Below, one piece after another: positions 9,269-17,195 of a stretch of 64,000 nt of DNA (its first letter is position 1; each line of letters begins with the position of its first letter). Origin of the DNA: Hydrogenimonas urashimensis (GTDB taxonomy: Bacteria; Campylobacterota; Campylobacteria; Campylobacterales; Hydrogenimonadaceae); NCBI RefSeq assembly GCF_016593255.1, contig NZ_AP023212.1, positions 1 through 64,000 of the forward strand, given 5' to 3'. The notes under the pieces are model-generated. The model was not told the origin of the DNA. It saw nothing but the letters and a program-made list of their open reading frames with translations, and did not search any database. Made by a program: the position numbers and the translations under genes.

Positions 9269-9697
9269 ATGGAGTGCGAATTTCCCACTATCAACGCCAA
9301 TCCCGAAGAGATCAGGGAGATATTCGAGGAGGTGGAGACGATCGCCGTCATCGGTCTCTCTCCCGATCCTTCCAAAGACAGCCACCGTGTGGCGAAATAT
9401 CTGCAGGAGGCCGGTTACAAAATCATTCCGGTCTATCCCAAGGAGGAGGAGATTCTGGGTGAGAAGGTCTACCGGTCGCTCAGGGAGATTCCCGGCAGTG
9501 TTGATATGGTTGACATCTTCAGAAAACCCGCGGCGGTGGGTCCGATTGTCGAGGCGTGCAAGGCGCGCGGCGATATCAAGGTGGTCTGGCTGCAGGCGGG
9601 AATCGTCAACAACGAAGCGGCCGATGCGGCCAAAAAAGCGGGCATGAAGGTGGTGCAGAGCCGCTGCGCCATGGTCGACCACAGAAACCTCGCATGA
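9269..9697 (+). CDS. CoA-binding (YccU-type Rossmann) protein
   Basis: The product has 142 residues forming a single Rossmann-like CoA-binding domain. The nucleotide loop is 'IAVIGLSPDPSKDSHRVAKY' (about residues 26-45), followed by 'GYKIIPVYPKEEEILGEKVY' and the family-typical 'VDMVDIFRKP' and 'VVWLQAGIVNNEAA'. The C-terminal 'VVQSRCAMVDH' matches the conserved Cys of this family. Function is not established; CoA or acyl-CoA binding is known for the fold. I chose ATG 9269 because AAGGA lies 7 nt upstream; an upstream in-frame start would be read through the repeat element. It overlaps ilvA by 4 nt (ATGA). Confidence 0.88.
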   Translation: MECEFPTINANPEEIREIFEEVETIAVIGLSPDPSKDSHRVAKYLQEAGYKIIPVYPKEEEILGEKVYRSLREIPGSVDMVDIFRKPAAVGPIVEACKARGDIKVVWLQAGIVNNEAADAAKKAGMKVVQSRCAMVDHRNLA

Positions 9698-10905
9698 TTC
9701 GACTCGAAGATATCCAAAGGGCTCATGCCCAGGTTCGCAAAGTTGCGGTCGAAACGCCCTTTTCCTACGCGCCCAAACTGAGCGAGGAGAGCGGATTTGA
9801 AGTCTACCTGAAAAAGGAGAATCTACAGACTACCGGCTCCTTCAAGATACGGGGCGCATTCAACAAAATCGCCTCGCTGAGCGATTTGGAGCGCGGTCGG
9901 GGTGTCGTGGCGGCAAGTGCGGGCAACCATGCCCAGGGTGTGGCGCTGGCGGCGAAATATTTCGGCATTCCCGCGACGATCGTCATGCCGGAAACGACGC
10001 CCCTGACGAAAGTGGATGGTGTCAAGTCCTACGGGGCGGAGGTGGTACTGCATGGGAGCAACTACGACGAAGCCTATGGCTACGCCGTCAAGTTCGCCAA
10101 AGAGAAGGGACGGGTCTTCGTCCACCCTTTTGCCGACGAAGAGGTGATCGCGGGTCAGGGAACCATTGCACTGGAAATTCTGCAGAAATGCGAAAAGCCG
10201 GACGCCATTCTCGTCCCCGTGGGCGGTGGCGGCCTCATCAGCGGCATCGCGGTCGCTGTTAAAGCACTTTCTCCCGACACCAAAGTGATCGGTGTGGCGG
10301 CGGAAGGGGCACCGGCCATGAAACTCTCTTTCGATGCCCGTGAACCGATCGATACGACGGGGGTGCGGACCATCGCGGACGGGATCGCGGTACGGGACAC
10401 CTCCGCAACGACGCTGGCCTACATTTTGCGCTACGTGGACGATATCGTGCTCGTCAGCGATGACGAAATCGCCAATGCGATTCTCTACCTGCTTGAAAAA
10501 CAGAAACTTGTCGTGGAGGGGGCGGGCGCCGTCGGTGTGGCCGCTCTGATCCACCGACGTCTCAATCTCCCCGAAAAGGCGAAGGTCGTGACGGTGCTCA
10601 GCGGAGGAAACATCGATGTCACGATGCTCTCGGTTATTATCGAGAAGGGCCTGCTCAAATCCTACCGCAAAATGAAACTGGTGGTGACGCTTATCGACAA
10701 GCCCGGCAGCCTGATGAAACTGACGGAGATTTTGAAAGAGGCGCAGGCCAATATCGTGCAGATCGGCTATGACCGCACCTCGCTCGACCTCAAATTCGGT
10801 GACGCCTACGTCTCCATCGCCGTGGAAACCAAAGGAAGGGAACATCAGCAGGAGATAAAAAAACTTCTACACGAACATGGATACCGTTTTGAAGAGGAGC
10901 ATTGA
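9694..10905 (+). CDS. ilvA: Threonine ammonia-lyase with C-terminal ACT domain
   Basis: The product has 403 residues, a fold-type II PLP enzyme. The PLP lysine is in 'TGSFKIRGAFNK' (Lys51), followed by 'AASAGNHAQGVA' and the glycine loop 'VPVGGGGLISG' that holds the phosphate. Residues about 325-403 form an ACT domain ('VTLIDKPGSLMKLTEIL') for allosteric control. This short, one-ACT form resembles TdcB-like enzymes of many Campylobacterota and converts threonine to 2-oxobutanoate for isoleucine synthesis. ilvB and ilvH lie about 3 kb downstream on the same strand, supporting the biosynthetic role. ATGA overlap with the CoA-binding gene. Confidence 0.94.
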   Translation: MIRLEDIQRAHAQVRKVAVETPFSYAPKLSEESGFEVYLKKENLQTTGSFKIRGAFNKIASLSDLERGRGVVAASAGNHAQGVALAAKYFGIPATIVMPETTPLTKVDGVKSYGAEVVLHGSNYDEAYGYAVKFAKEKGRVFVHPFADEEVIAGQGTIALEILQKCEKPDAILVPVGGGGLISGIAVAVKALSPDTKVIGVAAEGAPAMKLSFDAREPIDTTGVRTIADGIAVRDTSATTLAYILRYVDDIVLVSDDEIANAILYLLEKQKLVVEGAGAVGVAALIHRRLNLPEKAKVVTVLSGGNIDVTMLSVIIEKGLLKSYRKMKLVVTLIDKPGSLMKLTEILKEAQANIVQIGYDRTSLDLKFGDAYVSIAVETKGREHQQEIKKLLHEHGYRFEEEH

Positions 10906-10914
10906 GACTCTCCT

Positions 10915-13023
10915 ATGATCATCGAGAAGAGACTTCGTTTCAAATCCGCCGTGACGGCTGTCAAGCCGATGGAGAGGAAAAAAATCGCCATAATCGATGC
11001 CACAAACAGTGTCCGCTTCTTCAAACTCGATCCGGTCATTTTGGTGGACGGATTCAAAACCTCCATCGAACAGGATCCTCATCTGCTTCAAGGAAGCGAC
11101 CTCTCCAAGGACGGCCGTTTCGTCGCCTTTTCGGTCAAAAAGGGGGGTGTCGCGGTGTTCAGTGGCAACCAGAAGCGGCTAATCTACCGGTTCCGGCGGC
11201 ACGAAGGGGATGTGGAGAGTCTCTGCATCAGTGACAGCCACGACTATCTCGCAACCGGCGGACAGGATGGCAAAACCTTTCTATGGAGCCTCGTGACAGG
11301 GCGCATGGTCGCCTCGCTGCCCCACCATGCCGACTTTGTAACCGCCATCGATTTCAGCCCCAACGGTCAGTGGATCGCCACGGGAAGTTTCGACCGAAAA
11401 ATCCTCGTGACCAATATCTCATCCCTCTCCCGCCATTTCCGCCTTAGAGGGCATGGCGGCGCCATCAATGCCATCCGGTTCATCAGGGACCACCGCCTCG
11501 TCGCCGCCGACAAGAGCGGAGAGATTGTCGTGTGGGACTATTTCGATCAGCGGGTTGTCAAACGTCTGAAAAAGATGCTGGACGAAGTGACCTCCCTGTG
11601 CGTCACGCCCGACGACCGGTTTCTTTTCGCAGCCGACAGAAGCGGTCTGGTCTCCCTTTATGATCTCAACACCTACGAAATGCTCTCTTTGCGCTACCTG
11701 ACCTACCGCAAGCCGATCAGGAAAATCGCCTATGCCGAAACGGGCAACTATCTTGTCGTCGGGCTCGAAGATGGTGAAGTGACCTTCAACACCCCGCTGA
11801 AAGAGAGCGAAAGGATGGAGGAGATGATCGATACCGGCAAGCTTTCGGAAGCCTACCGCCTTGCCGACGAAAATCCGCTGCTGCGCTACAGCGATGGCTA
11901 TCTCCGGCTCGAAGTTTTATGGGAAGAGGCTTACGAAGAGGCGGTAAAACTGCTGGAGAAAGGCAGACGCGACGAAGCGAAGAGGGTACTTGAGCCCTTC
12001 GGGGGAGAGAGTTCCAAAAGGCTTCTAATCCAGCAGCTTCTCCACGACTACCGGATGTTTGAAAAGTTCAAAACCGCTGTCGAAAACAGGCGCTTCCAGC
12101 TCGCCTACTCCCTTGCGGCCCAATACCCGTCACTCAAACAGAGCCGTTACTACACGCAGATGGAAGAGGCGTGGCACACGGTGTTCACGAAAGCCAAGAA
12201 GCTCATTCTGCAAAACGGCGGCGAGGAACGGGTAAAGGAGCTGTTCAAACCGTTCCGCGGTATCACGGGCAAGAGTGTACTGATCCAGACACTCCTTGCG
12301 GAGCGTGAGATATACAAACTTTTCATGAAACTGGTCAACAAGAGAGATTACAGGGGGGCGATCGAACTGGCGAAACGCTATCCCGCCATCCAGGAACTCG
12401 AAGAGTATCGCAAAATCGAGCGTCTCGCCGATGCGATCATCCAGAAAGCCCGTCTGGAACTGGAAAAAGGACATTACGCAGAAACGGCCCGGCTTGCGTC
12501 GCAGCTGATGGAATTTCCCGATCAGAAGAAGACGGCGGAGGCGTTGACGGAGGAGGCGAACCTCTACGCCTCGGCCATGCGCTATTTCGCGGAAAAAAAT
12601 TACGACGCGATCTACCGTATGCTGGAACAGTATCCGGTGCTGGAGGAGACGAAGATCGTGAAAAATCTCGAAGAGGCGTGGCGCAAAGTGGTGAAAGAGG
12701 CAGAGATATACGCGTCAAAAGGCGACATCGCCGCTCTGAAAAAGATTTTCGCTCCGTTTATGCCAATTGCCCGGCAAAGGTACAAAATCGTATCGCTTTT
12801 TAAGCAGGCCTATATCGAACAGATCGAACAGGGAAGCTCATCGTTCGGCAAAGATATCGACAAAGCGGTGGAGCGCTATCTCGGATTATTCGGTATGGAC
12901 GACGAGATCGATTCCTGGCTTCGCCTTCACGGAAAGATGAGAGAGCGTTTCGCCGAAGCGGCGGCAAACGATGCGGGAGCCATCGATCCTCTCCTGCTTC
13001 CCGACACGATTATGGGAGATTGA
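10915..13023 (+). CDS. WD40 beta-propeller protein with helical-repeat C-terminus
   Basis: The product has 702 residues. Residues about 1-300 contain WD40-type blades (for example 'HEGDVESLCISDSHDYLATGG', split by a 'GKTFLW' strand, and 'FSPNGQWIATGSFDRKILV'). Residues about 305-660 are all-helical. At least three units of about 100 residues share a 'YP.L.....Y..+E' helix and a '+.LF.PF.GI..K..LIQ' helix (around residues 360-375, 440-460 and 600-625). There is no signal peptide or membrane segment, so it is probably a cytoplasmic scaffold. It overlaps the Ppx/GppA start region by a few bases, suggesting a shared operon. The family is known in the phylum only as a WD40-repeat protein; I assign no function. 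Confidence 0.85.
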   Translation: MIIEKRLRFKSAVTAVKPMERKKIAIIDATNSVRFFKLDPVILVDGFKTSIEQDPHLLQGSDLSKDGRFVAFSVKKGGVAVFSGNQKRLIYRFRRHEGDVESLCISDSHDYLATGGQDGKTFLWSLVTGRMVASLPHHADFVTAIDFSPNGQWIATGSFDRKILVTNISSLSRHFRLRGHGGAINAIRFIRDHRLVAADKSGEIVVWDYFDQRVVKRLKKMLDEVTSLCVTPDDRFLFAADRSGLVSLYDLNTYEMLSLRYLTYRKPIRKIAYAETGNYLVVGLEDGEVTFNTPLKESERMEEMIDTGKLSEAYRLADENPLLRYSDGYLRLEVLWEEAYEEAVKLLEKGRRDEAKRVLEPFGGESSKRLLIQQLLHDYRMFEKFKTAVENRRFQLAYSLAAQYPSLKQSRYYTQMEEAWHTVFTKAKKLILQNGGEERVKELFKPFRGITGKSVLIQTLLAEREIYKLFMKLVNKRDYRGAIELAKRYPAIQELEEYRKIERLADAIIQKARLELEKGHYAETARLASQLMEFPDQKKTAEALTEEANLYASAMRYFAEKNYDAIYRMLEQYPVLEETKIVKNLEEAWRKVVKEAEIYASKGDIAALKKIFAPFMPIARQRYKIVSLFKQAYIEQIEQGSSSFGKDIDKAVERYLGLFGMDDEIDSWLRLHGKMRERFAEAAANDAGAIDPLLLPDTIMGD

Positions 13024-13028
13024 CGAGA

Positions 13029-13967
13029 ATGCATGTGGTCGGCATCGACCTGGGCTCCAACACCTTTCGGGTCGCGGAACTCTCGTGCACCTCGTTGGAA
13101 ACCGTCCGGCAGTACGAGAAGATAGTAAGGACCGCCGACGGAATGGTGGAGACGGGGATCATTTCGGATGAGGCCCTCGAACGGATTGTCGAAGCGGCCC
13201 GGAGCGCAAAAGCGAAAATCGATTTTTCTCACCACAAAGTCGTGGCGGTCGCGACAGAAGCGGTGCGCAGGGCGAAAAACGCCGACCGGATACTTGAGGC
13301 GATACGGCAACGCACCGGGATCTCCTTTCGTGTCATCTCGGGTGAAAAGGAGGCGGACTACACTCTGCTTGCCGTCAAAACACGCCTGGAGAAAATGGGA
13401 TACGAGGCACGCGATTTCGTGATGGTCGATATCGGCGGAGGATCGACCGAACTCCTCTTTTTCGATGGCAGACGCCTCTTTTCAAAAAGCTTTCCCATCG
13501 GCATCGTCACGGTGGCTCAGAGGTACAAAACGATGGAACGCATAGAAGAAGCCCTTCCCGGTCTGATGGTGCCGGTCGAAGCGTTTGTCCGAAAGGCGCA
13601 GGAACGGGGTATGCGCCCCGGACTCTTCGTCGCCACGGCGGGTACGCCCACGACGGTTGCCGCGATGAAACTGGGCATGGAGTACGACACCTACGACTCC
13701 GCACGCGTCAACGGCACGCTTCTTTTCAGGGAAGATCTGAAAATGCAGCTTCGAAGACTCCTTTCTTTGGACGTGGCCGCACGCCGTCGGCTTGTCGGTG
13801 TAGGCAGAGAGGATCTCATCGCGGCAGGGATTTTGATTTTCGAACGTTTTTACGAATTGCTCGGCTTTGACAGGGCGATTGTGGTCGACGACGGTCTGCG
13901 GGAAGGTGTGGCGATAGCCGAATGCCTCGGGCTGAAAGAGGGGCCGCGTTTTGAGAGGGTCGGGTAG
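13029..13967 (+). CDS. Ppx/GppA family exopolyphosphatase / pppGpp phosphohydrolase
   Basis: The product has 312 residues with the actin/Hsp70-like ATPase fold. Phosphate-1 loop is 'VVGIDLGSNTFRVAEL' at the N-terminus, phosphate-2 loop is 'FVMVDIGGGSTELLFF' (about residues 128-143), and the catalytic-region 'SGEKEADYTLLAV' is present. At this length it is the short form lacking the C-terminal HD domain of E. coli Ppx, as is common in Campylobacterota. It could hydrolyse polyphosphate or pppGpp; the sequence does not separate these. I chose ATG 13029, 11 nt after GGGAGA; a TTG at 13020 is possible. Confidence 0.88.
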   Translation: MHVVGIDLGSNTFRVAELSCTSLETVRQYEKIVRTADGMVETGIISDEALERIVEAARSAKAKIDFSHHKVVAVATEAVRRAKNADRILEAIRQRTGISFRVISGEKEADYTLLAVKTRLEKMGYEARDFVMVDIGGGSTELLFFDGRRLFSKSFPIGIVTVAQRYKTMERIEEALPGLMVPVEAFVRKAQERGMRPGLFVATAGTPTTVAAMKLGMEYDTYDSARVNGTLLFREDLKMQLRRLLSLDVAARRRLVGVGREDLIAAGILIFERFYELLGFDRAIVVDDGLREGVAIAECLGLKEGPRFERVG

Positions 13968-14050: not shown

Positions 14051-15742
14051 ATGGAGATGACCGGCGCACAGATGGTGATCGAAGCGATGAAGCTCGAAGG
14101 GGTCGATACGGTGTTCGGATACCCCGGCGGCGCCATCATGAACGTCTACGACGAAATCTACAAACAGAACGATTTTCGGCACATCCTGACACGGCACGAA
14201 CAGGCCGCGGTGCATGCGGCGGACGGATATGCCCGCTCGACCGGAAGAACCGGCGTCGCCTTTGTGACGAGCGGACCCGGTTTCACAAACGCGGTGACCG
14301 GTCTGGCGACAGCTTACATGGATTCGGTTCCGTTGGTGGTTATCAGCGGGCAGGTTCCCATCACGATGATCGGTACCGATGCCTTTCAGGAGATAGATGC
14401 GACGGGAATCAGCCGCTCCTGTACCAAACACAACTACCTGGTTCGAAGCGCCAAGGAGCTTCCCCGTATTCTCAAAGAGGCATTTTATATCGCTGCATCC
14501 GGACGCCCAGGTCCCGTTCATGTCGACATCCCGAAAGATGTGACGGCGGAGGTTGCCGCGTTCGAATATCCGACCCATATCGACCTTCCGACCTACCGTC
14601 CGACGACGAAGGGGAATGTGCGTCAGATCAAGAAGGCGGCCGAAGCGATCTGCAACGCCAAGCGTCCCGTTTTCTATCTGGGCGGAGGCATCATCAATTC
14701 CGGCAGCGCGGAGCTTGTCCGGGAATTCGTCCAGGCGACGCAGATTCCCGCCGTTGAGACCCTGATGGCCCGCGGATCGCTCCGCTACGACGATCCTCTG
14801 CTGCTGGGCATGGTCGGTATGCACGGAAGCTACCAGGCTAACATGGCCATGAGCGAAACGGATCTGATGATCGCCCTCGGACCCCGCTTTGATGACCGCG
14901 TAACCGGGAAACTCTCCGAGTTTGCCAAGCATGCGAAAGTGATCCATGTCGATATCGATCCCAGCTCCATCGGCAAGCTGATCGACGTGGACTATCCCAT
15001 TGTCGGGGATCTCAAAGAGGTTCTTGAAGTGATGATTCCCAAGGTCAAAGAGTGTGTCGACCCGGACCGCTACCAGGCGTGGAGGAACATCCTGAAACGC
15101 TATAACGAGATTCATCCGATGCATTTTGAAGACAGCGACAAAGTCATCAAACCCCAGTGGGTCATCAAGCGTGTCGGAGAGATTCTTGGCGACAGGGCGG
15201 TCATATCGACCGATGTCGGACAGCACCAGATGTGGACGGCACAGTTCTATCCTTTCTCCTACCCCAGGCAGCTCGTCACAAGCGGGGGACTGGGGACGAT
15301 GGGTTTCGGTTTCCCCGCTGCGATGGGTGTCAAACGGGGTGTGCCCGACAAGGTCAGCATCAACTTTACGGGAGACGGTTCCATCCTGATGAATATCCAG
15401 GAGCTGGTGACTGCGGTCGAAAGCAGACTGCCTGTGGTCAACATCATTCTAAACAATCACTATCTTGGCATGGTGCGTCAGTGGCAGACCTTCTTTTATG
15501 ACAAACGCTACGCGGAGACCGATCTGAGCTTCCAGCCGGACTTCGTGCGCCTTGCCGAAGCGTGCGGTGGTGTCGGATACCGTGTCGAGACGAAAGAGGA
15601 GTTCGACGAGGCGCTTCAGGATGCGGTGAACAAAGGGGTCGTGGCAATGATCGACGTGATCATCGATCGGGATGAGAATGTACTCCCAATGGTGCCGAGT
15701 GGCGGAACTCTCTACAACATGATGCTGGAATACAAGGATTGA
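14051..15742 (+). CDS. ilvB: Acetolactate synthase large (catalytic) subunit
   Basis: The product has 563 residues, a thiamine-diphosphate enzyme. The N-terminal domain has 'VFGYPGGAIMNVYDEI' and the catalytic Glu in 'TRHEQAAVHAADGYARSTG' (about residue 54). The central domain binds FAD. The C-terminal ThDP motif runs from 'GDGSILMN' to 'NNHYLGMVRQWQ'. It condenses pyruvate, or pyruvate with 2-oxobutanoate, in valine, leucine and isoleucine synthesis. TTAGGAG lies 8 nt before the ATG. The regulatory subunit ilvH follows with a 1-4 nt junction. The ilvB-ilvH-lpxD order matches the one I recall from C. jejuni. Confidence 0.96.
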   Translation: MEMTGAQMVIEAMKLEGVDTVFGYPGGAIMNVYDEIYKQNDFRHILTRHEQAAVHAADGYARSTGRTGVAFVTSGPGFTNAVTGLATAYMDSVPLVVISGQVPITMIGTDAFQEIDATGISRSCTKHNYLVRSAKELPRILKEAFYIAASGRPGPVHVDIPKDVTAEVAAFEYPTHIDLPTYRPTTKGNVRQIKKAAEAICNAKRPVFYLGGGIINSGSAELVREFVQATQIPAVETLMARGSLRYDDPLLLGMVGMHGSYQANMAMSETDLMIALGPRFDDRVTGKLSEFAKHAKVIHVDIDPSSIGKLIDVDYPIVGDLKEVLEVMIPKVKECVDPDRYQAWRNILKRYNEIHPMHFEDSDKVIKPQWVIKRVGEILGDRAVISTDVGQHQMWTAQFYPFSYPRQLVTSGGLGTMGFGFPAAMGVKRGVPDKVSINFTGDGSILMNIQELVTAVESRLPVVNIILNNHYLGMVRQWQTFFYDKRYAETDLSFQPDFVRLAEACGGVGYRVETKEEFDEALQDAVNKGVVAMIDVIIDRDENVLPMVPSGGTLYNMMLEYKD

Positions 15743-15744
15743 TG

Positions 15745-16218
15745 ATGAAAGTAGAACGACGTATAATCTCTGTAATCGTGCAAAACGAACACAGTGTCCT
15801 CGCCCGCATCACGAGTCTTTTCGCCGCCCGGGGCTACAATATCGAAACATTGACCGTAGCACCCATTCCCGACAGCAACATGTCGCGGCTGACGATCGAG
15901 ACGAAAGGAAACGTTCGGGTCATCGAGCAGATCATCAAACAGCTTCACAAACTGATTCCGACCTACAAGGTGATCGAACATGAAGAGATGGTCGAAAAGG
16001 AGCTGGTGATGATGAAATTTCCGATCAACGAATCGCTGGCCAATATCCAGGCTCTCTGTGAAGCCTACAACGGCGGTATCGCCAATGTCAGCAGCCAACA
16101 TATCATCACGATGGTGGCGGACGAGCCCAAAAGGGTCAAACATTTCATCGAGGCGGCGCAGCGCTTTCATCCCGTCGAAATCGTGCGCGGCGGCGTCGTC
16201 GCCATGGAGCGCGAATGA
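15745..16218 (+). CDS. ilvH: Acetolactate synthase small (regulatory) subunit
   Basis: The product has 157 residues. The N-terminal ACT domain ('ISVIVQNEHSVLARITSLFAARGYNIETLTV') binds valine for feedback inhibition and activates the large subunit. A second ferredoxin-like domain follows ('VMMKFPINESLANIQALCEAYNG'). Length and order match IlvH/IlvN. ATG 15745 lies 6 nt after AAGGA (15734-15738); ATG 15742 overlaps the ilvB stop and is an alternative. Its 3' end overlaps lpxD by 4 nt (ATGA). Confidence 0.95.
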   Translation: MKVERRIISVIVQNEHSVLARITSLFAARGYNIETLTVAPIPDSNMSRLTIETKGNVRVIEQIIKQLHKLIPTYKVIEHEEMVEKELVMMKFPINESLANIQALCEAYNGGIANVSSQHIITMVADEPKRVKHFIEAAQRFHPVEIVRGGVVAMERE

Positions 16219-17195
16219 GGCTGAGTGAACTCGCGGCCCAAATCGGTGTGGCCTTCGAAGGGGAAGATCGTGAAATCCTCGGCATCGGCACGCTCAAAAG
16301 CGCCACGCCACAGGAACTGAGCTTTCTCGACAATCCCAGATATGCCGATGAACTCGCCAAAACGAAGGCGGCCGCCGTACTGGTTTCGCCGAAATTCGCA
16401 TCGCAGGTTCCAAAAGGGACGGTGGCCCTGGTCGATGACGAACCCTATCTGAAACTGGCCTATGCCAGCCGTCTGTTCGCTCCCGAGCCGATGAAGCAGG
16501 AGGGGAAGGAACCGATTTTCGGCAAAGAGTGCCGGATCGGGGAGGGGGTCCGTTTCGGAAAAAATGTGGTGATCGCGGAGCGGGTGACCATCATGCCCGG
16601 ATCCTATATCGGTGACGATGTGAAGATAGGCAGCGATACACTGATCTATCCCAACGTGACGATCTATCACGGTTGCCGGATCGGGGAGCGCTGCATCATC
16701 CATGCGGGAACGGTCGTGGGAAGCGACGGGTTCGGTTTCGCCCATACGAAGGAGGGCAGCCATGTCAAGCTTTTTCAACTCGGCAACGTAGTGATCGAGG
16801 ATGATGTCGAGATCGGAGCCAACTGCGCCATCGACCGGGGTGCGATCGCCTCGACGATCATCCGCAAAGGCGCTATCATCGACAATCTTGTCCATATCGC
16901 CCATAACTGCGATATCGGAGAGTATTCGGTATTGACGGGACAGGTGGGACTTTCCGGCTCGACGAAACTCGGCCGGAATGTGGTGATGGGCGGTCAGAGC
17001 GGCACTGCCGGACACCTGGAGATCGGTCCCTTCGCGACCATAGCGGCACGGGGCGGTGTGACCAAATCGATCGAAGGAGGCAAAGTCTATGCCGGTTTCC
17101 CGATCATGGAACACAAAAAGTGGCTCAAGCTCAATGCGCTGCTGATGCGGATGCTCAACAGTGCGATATCCAACAAATCGAAGGAGAAAAGATGA
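16215..17195 (+). CDS. lpxD: UDP-3-O-acylglucosamine N-acyltransferase
   Basis: The product has 326 residues. The N-terminal uridine-binding domain (residues 1-100, 'LSFLDNPRYADEL') precedes a left-handed beta-helix of hexapeptide repeats. The catalytic His is in 'LVHIAHNCDIGE' (about residues 225-236), and 'GSDGFGFAH' is the LpxD family motif. It adds the second hydroxyacyl chain in lipid A synthesis at the cytoplasmic side of the inner membrane. It is coupled by ATGA overlaps to ilvH upstream and the small gene downstream. The link to ilvBH is a conserved gene order in the phylum rather than a pathway link. Confidence 0.95.
   Translation: MRLSELAAQIGVAFEGEDREILGIGTLKSATPQELSFLDNPRYADELAKTKAAAVLVSPKFASQVPKGTVALVDDEPYLKLAYASRLFAPEPMKQEGKEPIFGKECRIGEGVRFGKNVVIAERVTIMPGSYIGDDVKIGSDTLIYPNVTIYHGCRIGERCIIHAGTVVGSDGFGFAHTKEGSHVKLFQLGNVVIEDDVEIGANCAIDRGAIASTIIRKGAIIDNLVHIAHNCDIGEYSVLTGQVGLSGSTKLGRNVVMGGQSGTAGHLEIGPFATIAARGGVTKSIEGGKVYAGFPIMEHKKWLKLNALLMRMLNSAISNKSKEKR

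Follow-up and report, generated by a model that had tools for sequence, protein, structure and literature searches.

Proteins in which an N-terminal β-propeller is followed, in one chain, by C-terminal stacked helix pairs have the domain order by which coat (protocoatomer) proteins are defined. In the part of the 2010 survey drawn on here (PMC2799638), the only non-eukaryotic proteins reported with this arrangement came from the Planctomycetes superphylum; the same part grants that false negatives occur and notes that both domains are present, in other arrangements, in most proteomes. Prokaryotic WD40 proteins are largely uncharacterised according to the sections used of a survey devoted to them (PMC5587647), in which signalling and other roles are inferred from gene neighbours elsewhere; those sections do not mention a propeller-arm family, and a limited search of the open-access literature found no account of one. 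The family described here, to judge from predicted structure, has its domains in the coat-type order and occurs in the Campylobacterota, outside the Planctomycetes superphylum.

In the window (the whole stretch of 64,000 nucleotides analysed, from Hydrogenimonas urashimensis) the gene lies at 10915..13023 on the forward strand, stop codon included; it starts with ATG and encodes 702 amino acid residues. No promoter or terminator signal scored better than in shuffled sequence. The preliminary description had recognised a WD40 propeller fused to a helical region, which is upheld by Pfam, by the AlphaFold2 model and by fold matches. Residues 1-295 (10915..11799, +) form a seven-bladed WD40 β-propeller; the Pfam WD40 model matches four stretches of the protein (99 bits; cut-off 27), and the AlphaFold2 model of the whole protein (38 sequences; mean pLDDT 89.7, pTM 0.79) contains 28 strands between residues 3 and 292, that is, seven blades of four. 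Alignment to solved WD40 structures with VIA-align gave Z values of 34-35 and an rmsd of 2.2-2.5 Å over 283-290 residues, and the best matches include a solved bacterial structure, the WD40 domain 5yzv of Thermomonospora curvata. Having passed the curated cut-off and possessing four-stranded blades, the window protein is a member of the WD40 superfamily (PF00400). Elsewhere in the genome one further, weak WD40 match (G000:C1:153021-153449; 25% identity) extends over the propeller part only, and the arm profile has no match there. A defence function was considered and rejected, the PADLOC match of the window protein (HEAT-ARM_XIII, best stretch residues 64-164) being confined to the WD40 part.

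The propeller is followed by an all-helical arm, spanning about residues 299-636, which consists of four repeats with a unit of 84-85 residues. Repeats R1 (about residues 299-382; 11809..12060), the first helix of which is truncated, R3 (about residues 468-551; 12316..12567) and R4 (about residues 552-636; 12568..12822) were delimited by profile self-comparison, the model and repeat HMMs, all on the forward strand; for R2 (about residues 383-467; 12061..12315, +), the most conserved repeat of the family, conservation was used in addition. Predicted models place a C-terminal helical cap at residues 637-702 (12823..13020, +). Each repeat of the model comprises helices of approximately 25, 10, 5, 22, and 11 residues, and the arm modeled alone with AlphaFold2 reached a mean pLDDT of 89.4 and a pTM of 0.54.

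Compared with itself, a profile of the C-terminal half (29 homologues) matches off the diagonal when shifted by 84, 169, and 253 columns (E-values of 4e-28, 2e-19, and 3e-10, respectively). In a Smith-Waterman comparison of the window protein with itself the top off-diagonal score was 126, which none of 200 shuffles reached (mean 38, maximum 57); the repeats thus hold together on alignment. An HMM built from any one repeat picks up the remaining three in the window protein (domain scores 8.5-56; best of 200 shuffles 4.5-8.9), the weakest pair, the R3 HMM on R4, being marginal at 8.5 versus 5.4 for the shuffled sequences. Pairwise identity among the four window repeats is 16-32%. The self-profile, shuffle, and HMM results together indicate that the repetition noticed earlier is real, yet its "at least three" units of about 100 residues become four copies of about 85. 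The motifs from which it had been read are less uniform than was supposed: PF.GI..K..LIQ is clear only in R1 (residues 361-374) and R2 (446-459), R3 and R4 having degenerate versions, and P.L.....Y..E occurs, with changes, in R1 to R3 and is degenerate in R4. The R2 copy forms a loop motif, PFRGITGKSVLIQT (residues 446-459; 12250..12291, +), marked out by conservation over 102 members.

That no characterised family accounts for the arm, as had been proposed, agrees with the curated libraries, where no Pfam or NCBIfam model covers it. No Pfam match of the window arm exceeds its cut-off, the only one below it being SIX1_SD at E 0.015. This includes TPR models, the best of which among 29 members reached E 2.6e-4 in one member, and the HEAT/ARM models; a match to either family had been named as what would overturn the idea of a new repeat. 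In NCBIfam the window protein had two matches, both at chance level (E 0.33 and 0.64), and no enzyme family was found in the arm with NCBIfam or, over 29 members, with Pfam. A single arm sequence found no solved structure; the 29-row arm profile gave six weak matches, the best at E 0.007. Foldseek found no match of the arm model at E<=0.001 among either PDB entries or viral models, and the best VIA-align result was a Z of 7.8 with an rmsd of 21 Å over 104 residues, in a range which the tool calls common. Among coat proteins, IFT-A entries appear as weak matches only. Pieces of about 50 residues overlay TPR hairpins at 1.2-1.8 Å, all such overlays being local (about 50-60 residues), and the sequence contains A..LE.G....A patterns, which we take to be TPR-like; locally the modeled arm looks TPR-like. 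Weak fold matches are no proof of a new fold.

The arm profile (A1) matches 90 of the 298 Campylobacterota genomes in an even draw, spread over 23 of 58 genera, with up to three copies per genome and one in that of the window. Searches of three other phyla (those of genomes G299, G301, and G302), run without a positive control, matched 0/149, 0/194, and 0/199 genomes. Named relatives were searched out at 45 loci and belong to Hydrogenimonas, Nautiliaceae, Sulfuricurvum, and Sulfurimonas, the closest to the window protein being from a Hydrogenimonas (77%). Six of the 45 loci (L071-L076) are matches from other phyla that stop short of the arm's end, and their genomes yield no arm match at E<=0.001. 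A mobile origin was also rejected, since tblastn with the arm found no match in plasmids or phages and no relative was found in viral contigs. In one genome (G235, L153:4013-6159) the WD gene is split into two overlapping frames, a pseudogene or an assembly error.

A quick tree of 102 members, with long branches flagged, divides the family into clade A (51 members, including the window's) and clade B (51). It takes in all WD genes encoding over 560 aa, 102 of 103; the one left out, L039, is a 378-aa fragment at a contig end. The 103-gene locus set is not a random sample, for L032-L070 were found by scanning with a pattern derived from clade-A sequences and L080-L139 were picked by hand from among the matches listed; its neighbor names are a reading of sequences except where Pfam was run. 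Over the 102 members the best-conserved residues are K453 (99%), G119, L323, L531, N320, and E417, and the mean frequency of the top residue is 0.45 in R2 as against 0.33-0.40 in other parts. The R2 copy of the motif first noticed is consequently the best-kept piece of the arm.

In the window the gene is preceded, nine bases upstream, by an ilvA-like gene (threonine dehydratase by sequence reading; 9694..10905, +), the likely start of which, ATG 9694, is inferred from relatives of 403 aa. Directly downstream lies a short Ppx/GppA gene (13029..13967, +) starting at ATG 13029; the open reading frame as listed begins at TTG 13020 and overlaps the WD stop codon. Genes resembling ilvB, ilvN, and lpxD by sequence reading (14051..17195, +) make up the remainder of the co-directed cluster. 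The same genome carries a second, longer Ppx/GppA homologue (491 aa open frame; G000:C1:1910169-1911014). In clade A, gene order was read from 38 named loci plus the window, and the usual order in Hydrogenimonas and part of Sulfuricurvum is CoA-binding protein, ilvA, WD, ppx, ilvB, ilvN, lpxD. In two Sulfuricurvum loci (L046 and L048) ilvA and ppx are separated by a tandem pair of clade-A WD genes, probably a recent duplication. Clade-A genes are probably expressed together with ilvA, and in some lineages also with ppx.

The neighboring ppx had led the preliminary description to a scaffold for polyphosphate or stress signalling, a reading in which the WD protein binds or regulates the short Ppx. 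Its attraction is that ppx follows directly, nearly overlapping, in 27 of the 42 genes from named loci and the window, across Hydrogenimonas and Sulfuricurvum (27/103 over all family genes at the loci examined; the tree label ppx_down, set by locus, stands on 29 rows), and that in the window the WD stop overlaps the listed ppx start. The even draw gives a different picture. Among the matches listed, judged by eye, 34 of the 298 genomes carry a clade-A gene (arm E below 1e-110). Of these, 9 have ppx next to the WD gene and 8 have it elsewhere by the same reading; the other 17 lack the short-ppx orthologue and retain a distant Ppx alone (best E 1e-13 to 1e-21). Those 17 are 16 genomes of genus g9, that is, all 16 of its WD carriers by the same reading, and one of g10 of family f8. 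Conversely, short ppx is kept in many genomes without a WD gene, again among the matches listed; no clade-B gene (0/51) adjoins ppx, and the genome of the window has its longer Ppx elsewhere. Linkage to ppx is therefore not conserved across the family, and the expectation that homologues always neighbor it fails. Adjacency this patchy, with short ppx retained where the WD protein is absent, points to a lineage-specific operon arrangement and is weak functional evidence, and we regard a specific tie to Ppx as unlikely.

Another reading makes the protein a scaffold for the branched-chain amino acid (isoleucine) synthesis enzymes of its own cluster, ilvA, ilvB, and ilvN. An ilvA-like gene lies directly upstream of 30 of the 103 family genes, none of them in clade B, and the Sulfurimonas loci L064 and L070 keep ilvA-WD-ilvB without ppx, as would suit it; the Sulfurimonas genomes examined lack the short ppx. 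However, clade B has other neighbors, the clade-A genes of Nautiliaceae adjoin polA instead (polA-WD), and sharing an operon with ilv genes may be mere co-expression; this reading, too, is improbable.

Clade B is where a recurrent partner appears. Of the 51 clade-B genes, 16 are immediately preceded, on the same strand, by a gene of the c2 cluster, as is none of the 51 clade-A genes, the window's included. These partners come from six families (f2, f7, f8, f10, f11, and f13), and the gap between partner and WD gene is -22 to +21 bases, the two overlapping by over 20 bases in f11. Pfam recognised REC and PAS domains and no output domain in the three partners checked. The input end varies, being REC-PAS, PAS alone, coil-PAS, or REC alone, and the last approximately 115 residues are alike in 15 of the 16, the partner at L139 being a lone REC; 15 of the 51 sampled clade-B WD genes thus lie directly behind a gene bearing this constant end domain, which resembles PAS below the Pfam cut-offs. 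Examples upstream of clade-B genes are found at L093:4860-6143, L119:5315-5698, and L132:2402-2785. At L129 one WD gene is preceded by two consecutive partner-domain genes, L129:5176-5559 and its upstream neighbor.

An HMM built from the seven partners outside f11 recovers all eight f11 partners (E 1e-11 to 4e-5) and, among the 1142 open reading frames of the same loci, one further gene, itself beside a partner; the reverse test with an f11 HMM was weak, recovering one of the seven other partners and that neighboring gene. Of the 298 genomes, 24 contain a match to the domain at E<=0.001, and in 18 its E-value is below 1e-13. Every one of the 18 carries the WD family, as compared to 90/298 overall, and in 17 the domain lies directly upstream of the WD gene; in the 18th the two are on different contigs, the domain at the end of one and the WD gene at the start of the other. 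Ten of the 18 represent one genus, the others six genera in five other families, so that the co-occurrence does not amount to 18 independent events. The genome of the window has no convincing copy of the domain (best E 0.011), and 36 of the 51 clade-B genes have none next door. Many of the other clade-B genes adjoin ispG, or a polysaccharide deacetylase gene and dprA. At L080, L082, and L086 the WD gene is flanked by a polysaccharide deacetylase gene (PF04748 in L086) on one side and a dprA-like gene on the other, with a minD-like gene nearby, and at L084:7697-9835 it follows genes resembling exbB, exbD, and tonB, on the same strand and named by sequence reading.

A propeller and arm lacking an enzyme signature, present in several copies and with changing neighbors, fit a docking scaffold, and we consider it reasonably likely that the gene product is a cytosolic scaffold of this kind which in clade B serves as the output partner of interchangeable sensors. 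Such a protein, we infer, binds partners rather than catalyses. As a soluble cytosolic scaffold it would offer one binding face on the seven-bladed propeller and a second on the four-repeat arm, the latter best conserved around the PF.GI..K loop of R2. The frequent position of clade-B genes beside signal-sensing proteins suggests a docking platform in cell signalling. Here the WD protein is probably the output partner of the sensor encoded upstream, with the constant PAS-like domain of about 115 aa as the putative part that docks on it, and gene context suggests that the WD protein is read by, or reads, the sensors through this domain. Of the role first proposed, the scaffold survives as the most likely reading; signalling is retained for clade B alone, by gene context, and polyphosphate is not supported, with ppx adjacent in so few clade-A genomes and its orthologue missing from half of them.

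The third alternative, by analogy with eukaryotic coats and the coat-like proteins reported from Planctomycetes and their relatives, a bacterial membrane-coat-like protein whose propeller and stacked helix pairs would polymerise on membranes, has on its side that the predicted model places a propeller N-terminal and stacked helix pairs C-terminal, as the part of PMC2799638 used here defines the order (6-8 blades), that COPI subunits match the window propeller and that IFT-A subunits occur among the weak arm matches, but is very improbable; the fold searches of the arm noted above lend it no support, and the arm profile matches 0/149 genomes in the phylum to which G299 belongs (called Planctomycetes in L072).

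The docking scaffold matters in that the family is widespread in one phylum, its repeat is covered by no curated model, and one clade has a candidate docking domain, by virtue of which a direct binding test is possible. The fullest version of it, held tentatively and at somewhat less than even chances, is a previously undescribed signalling device of the Campylobacterota: a propeller-arm protein, whose 85-residue repeat of five helices has no curated model, would be the common output hub, read by interchangeable REC/PAS sensors via one constant PAS-like docking domain, and would extend the coat-type order of domains to a phylum for which the 2010 survey gave no example. Should the pairing prove genuine, phospho-relay or PAS sensors would have an output of a new type, and the propeller-plus-solenoid order could no longer be regarded as confined to eukaryotes and the Planctomycetes superphylum.

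In comparison to described systems, the window propeller is a normal seven-bladed member of the WD40 superfamily, from which the protein departs in that a long helical repeat arm is joined to it. With TPR proteins it shares hairpin geometry over pieces of about 50 residues, whereas its unit measures 84-85 residues and combines long helices with one of five residues, and a match over the whole arm is absent. The coat-like proteins of Planctomycetes and their relatives, as characterised in the part of PMC2799638 used here, likewise place an N-terminal propeller before stacked helix pairs in one chain; the present family occurs in another phylum, has no sequence match to them and is not known to be linked to membranes, and neither homology nor a coat function is claimed. 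Clade B invites comparison with the response regulators of two-component systems that have protein-interaction outputs, since 16 of its 51 genes follow a gene for a REC and/or PAS protein and the three such proteins checked have no recognised output domain. The output in clade B would be a separate propeller-arm protein, and the constant PAS-like end domain of its partners falls below the Pfam cut-offs.
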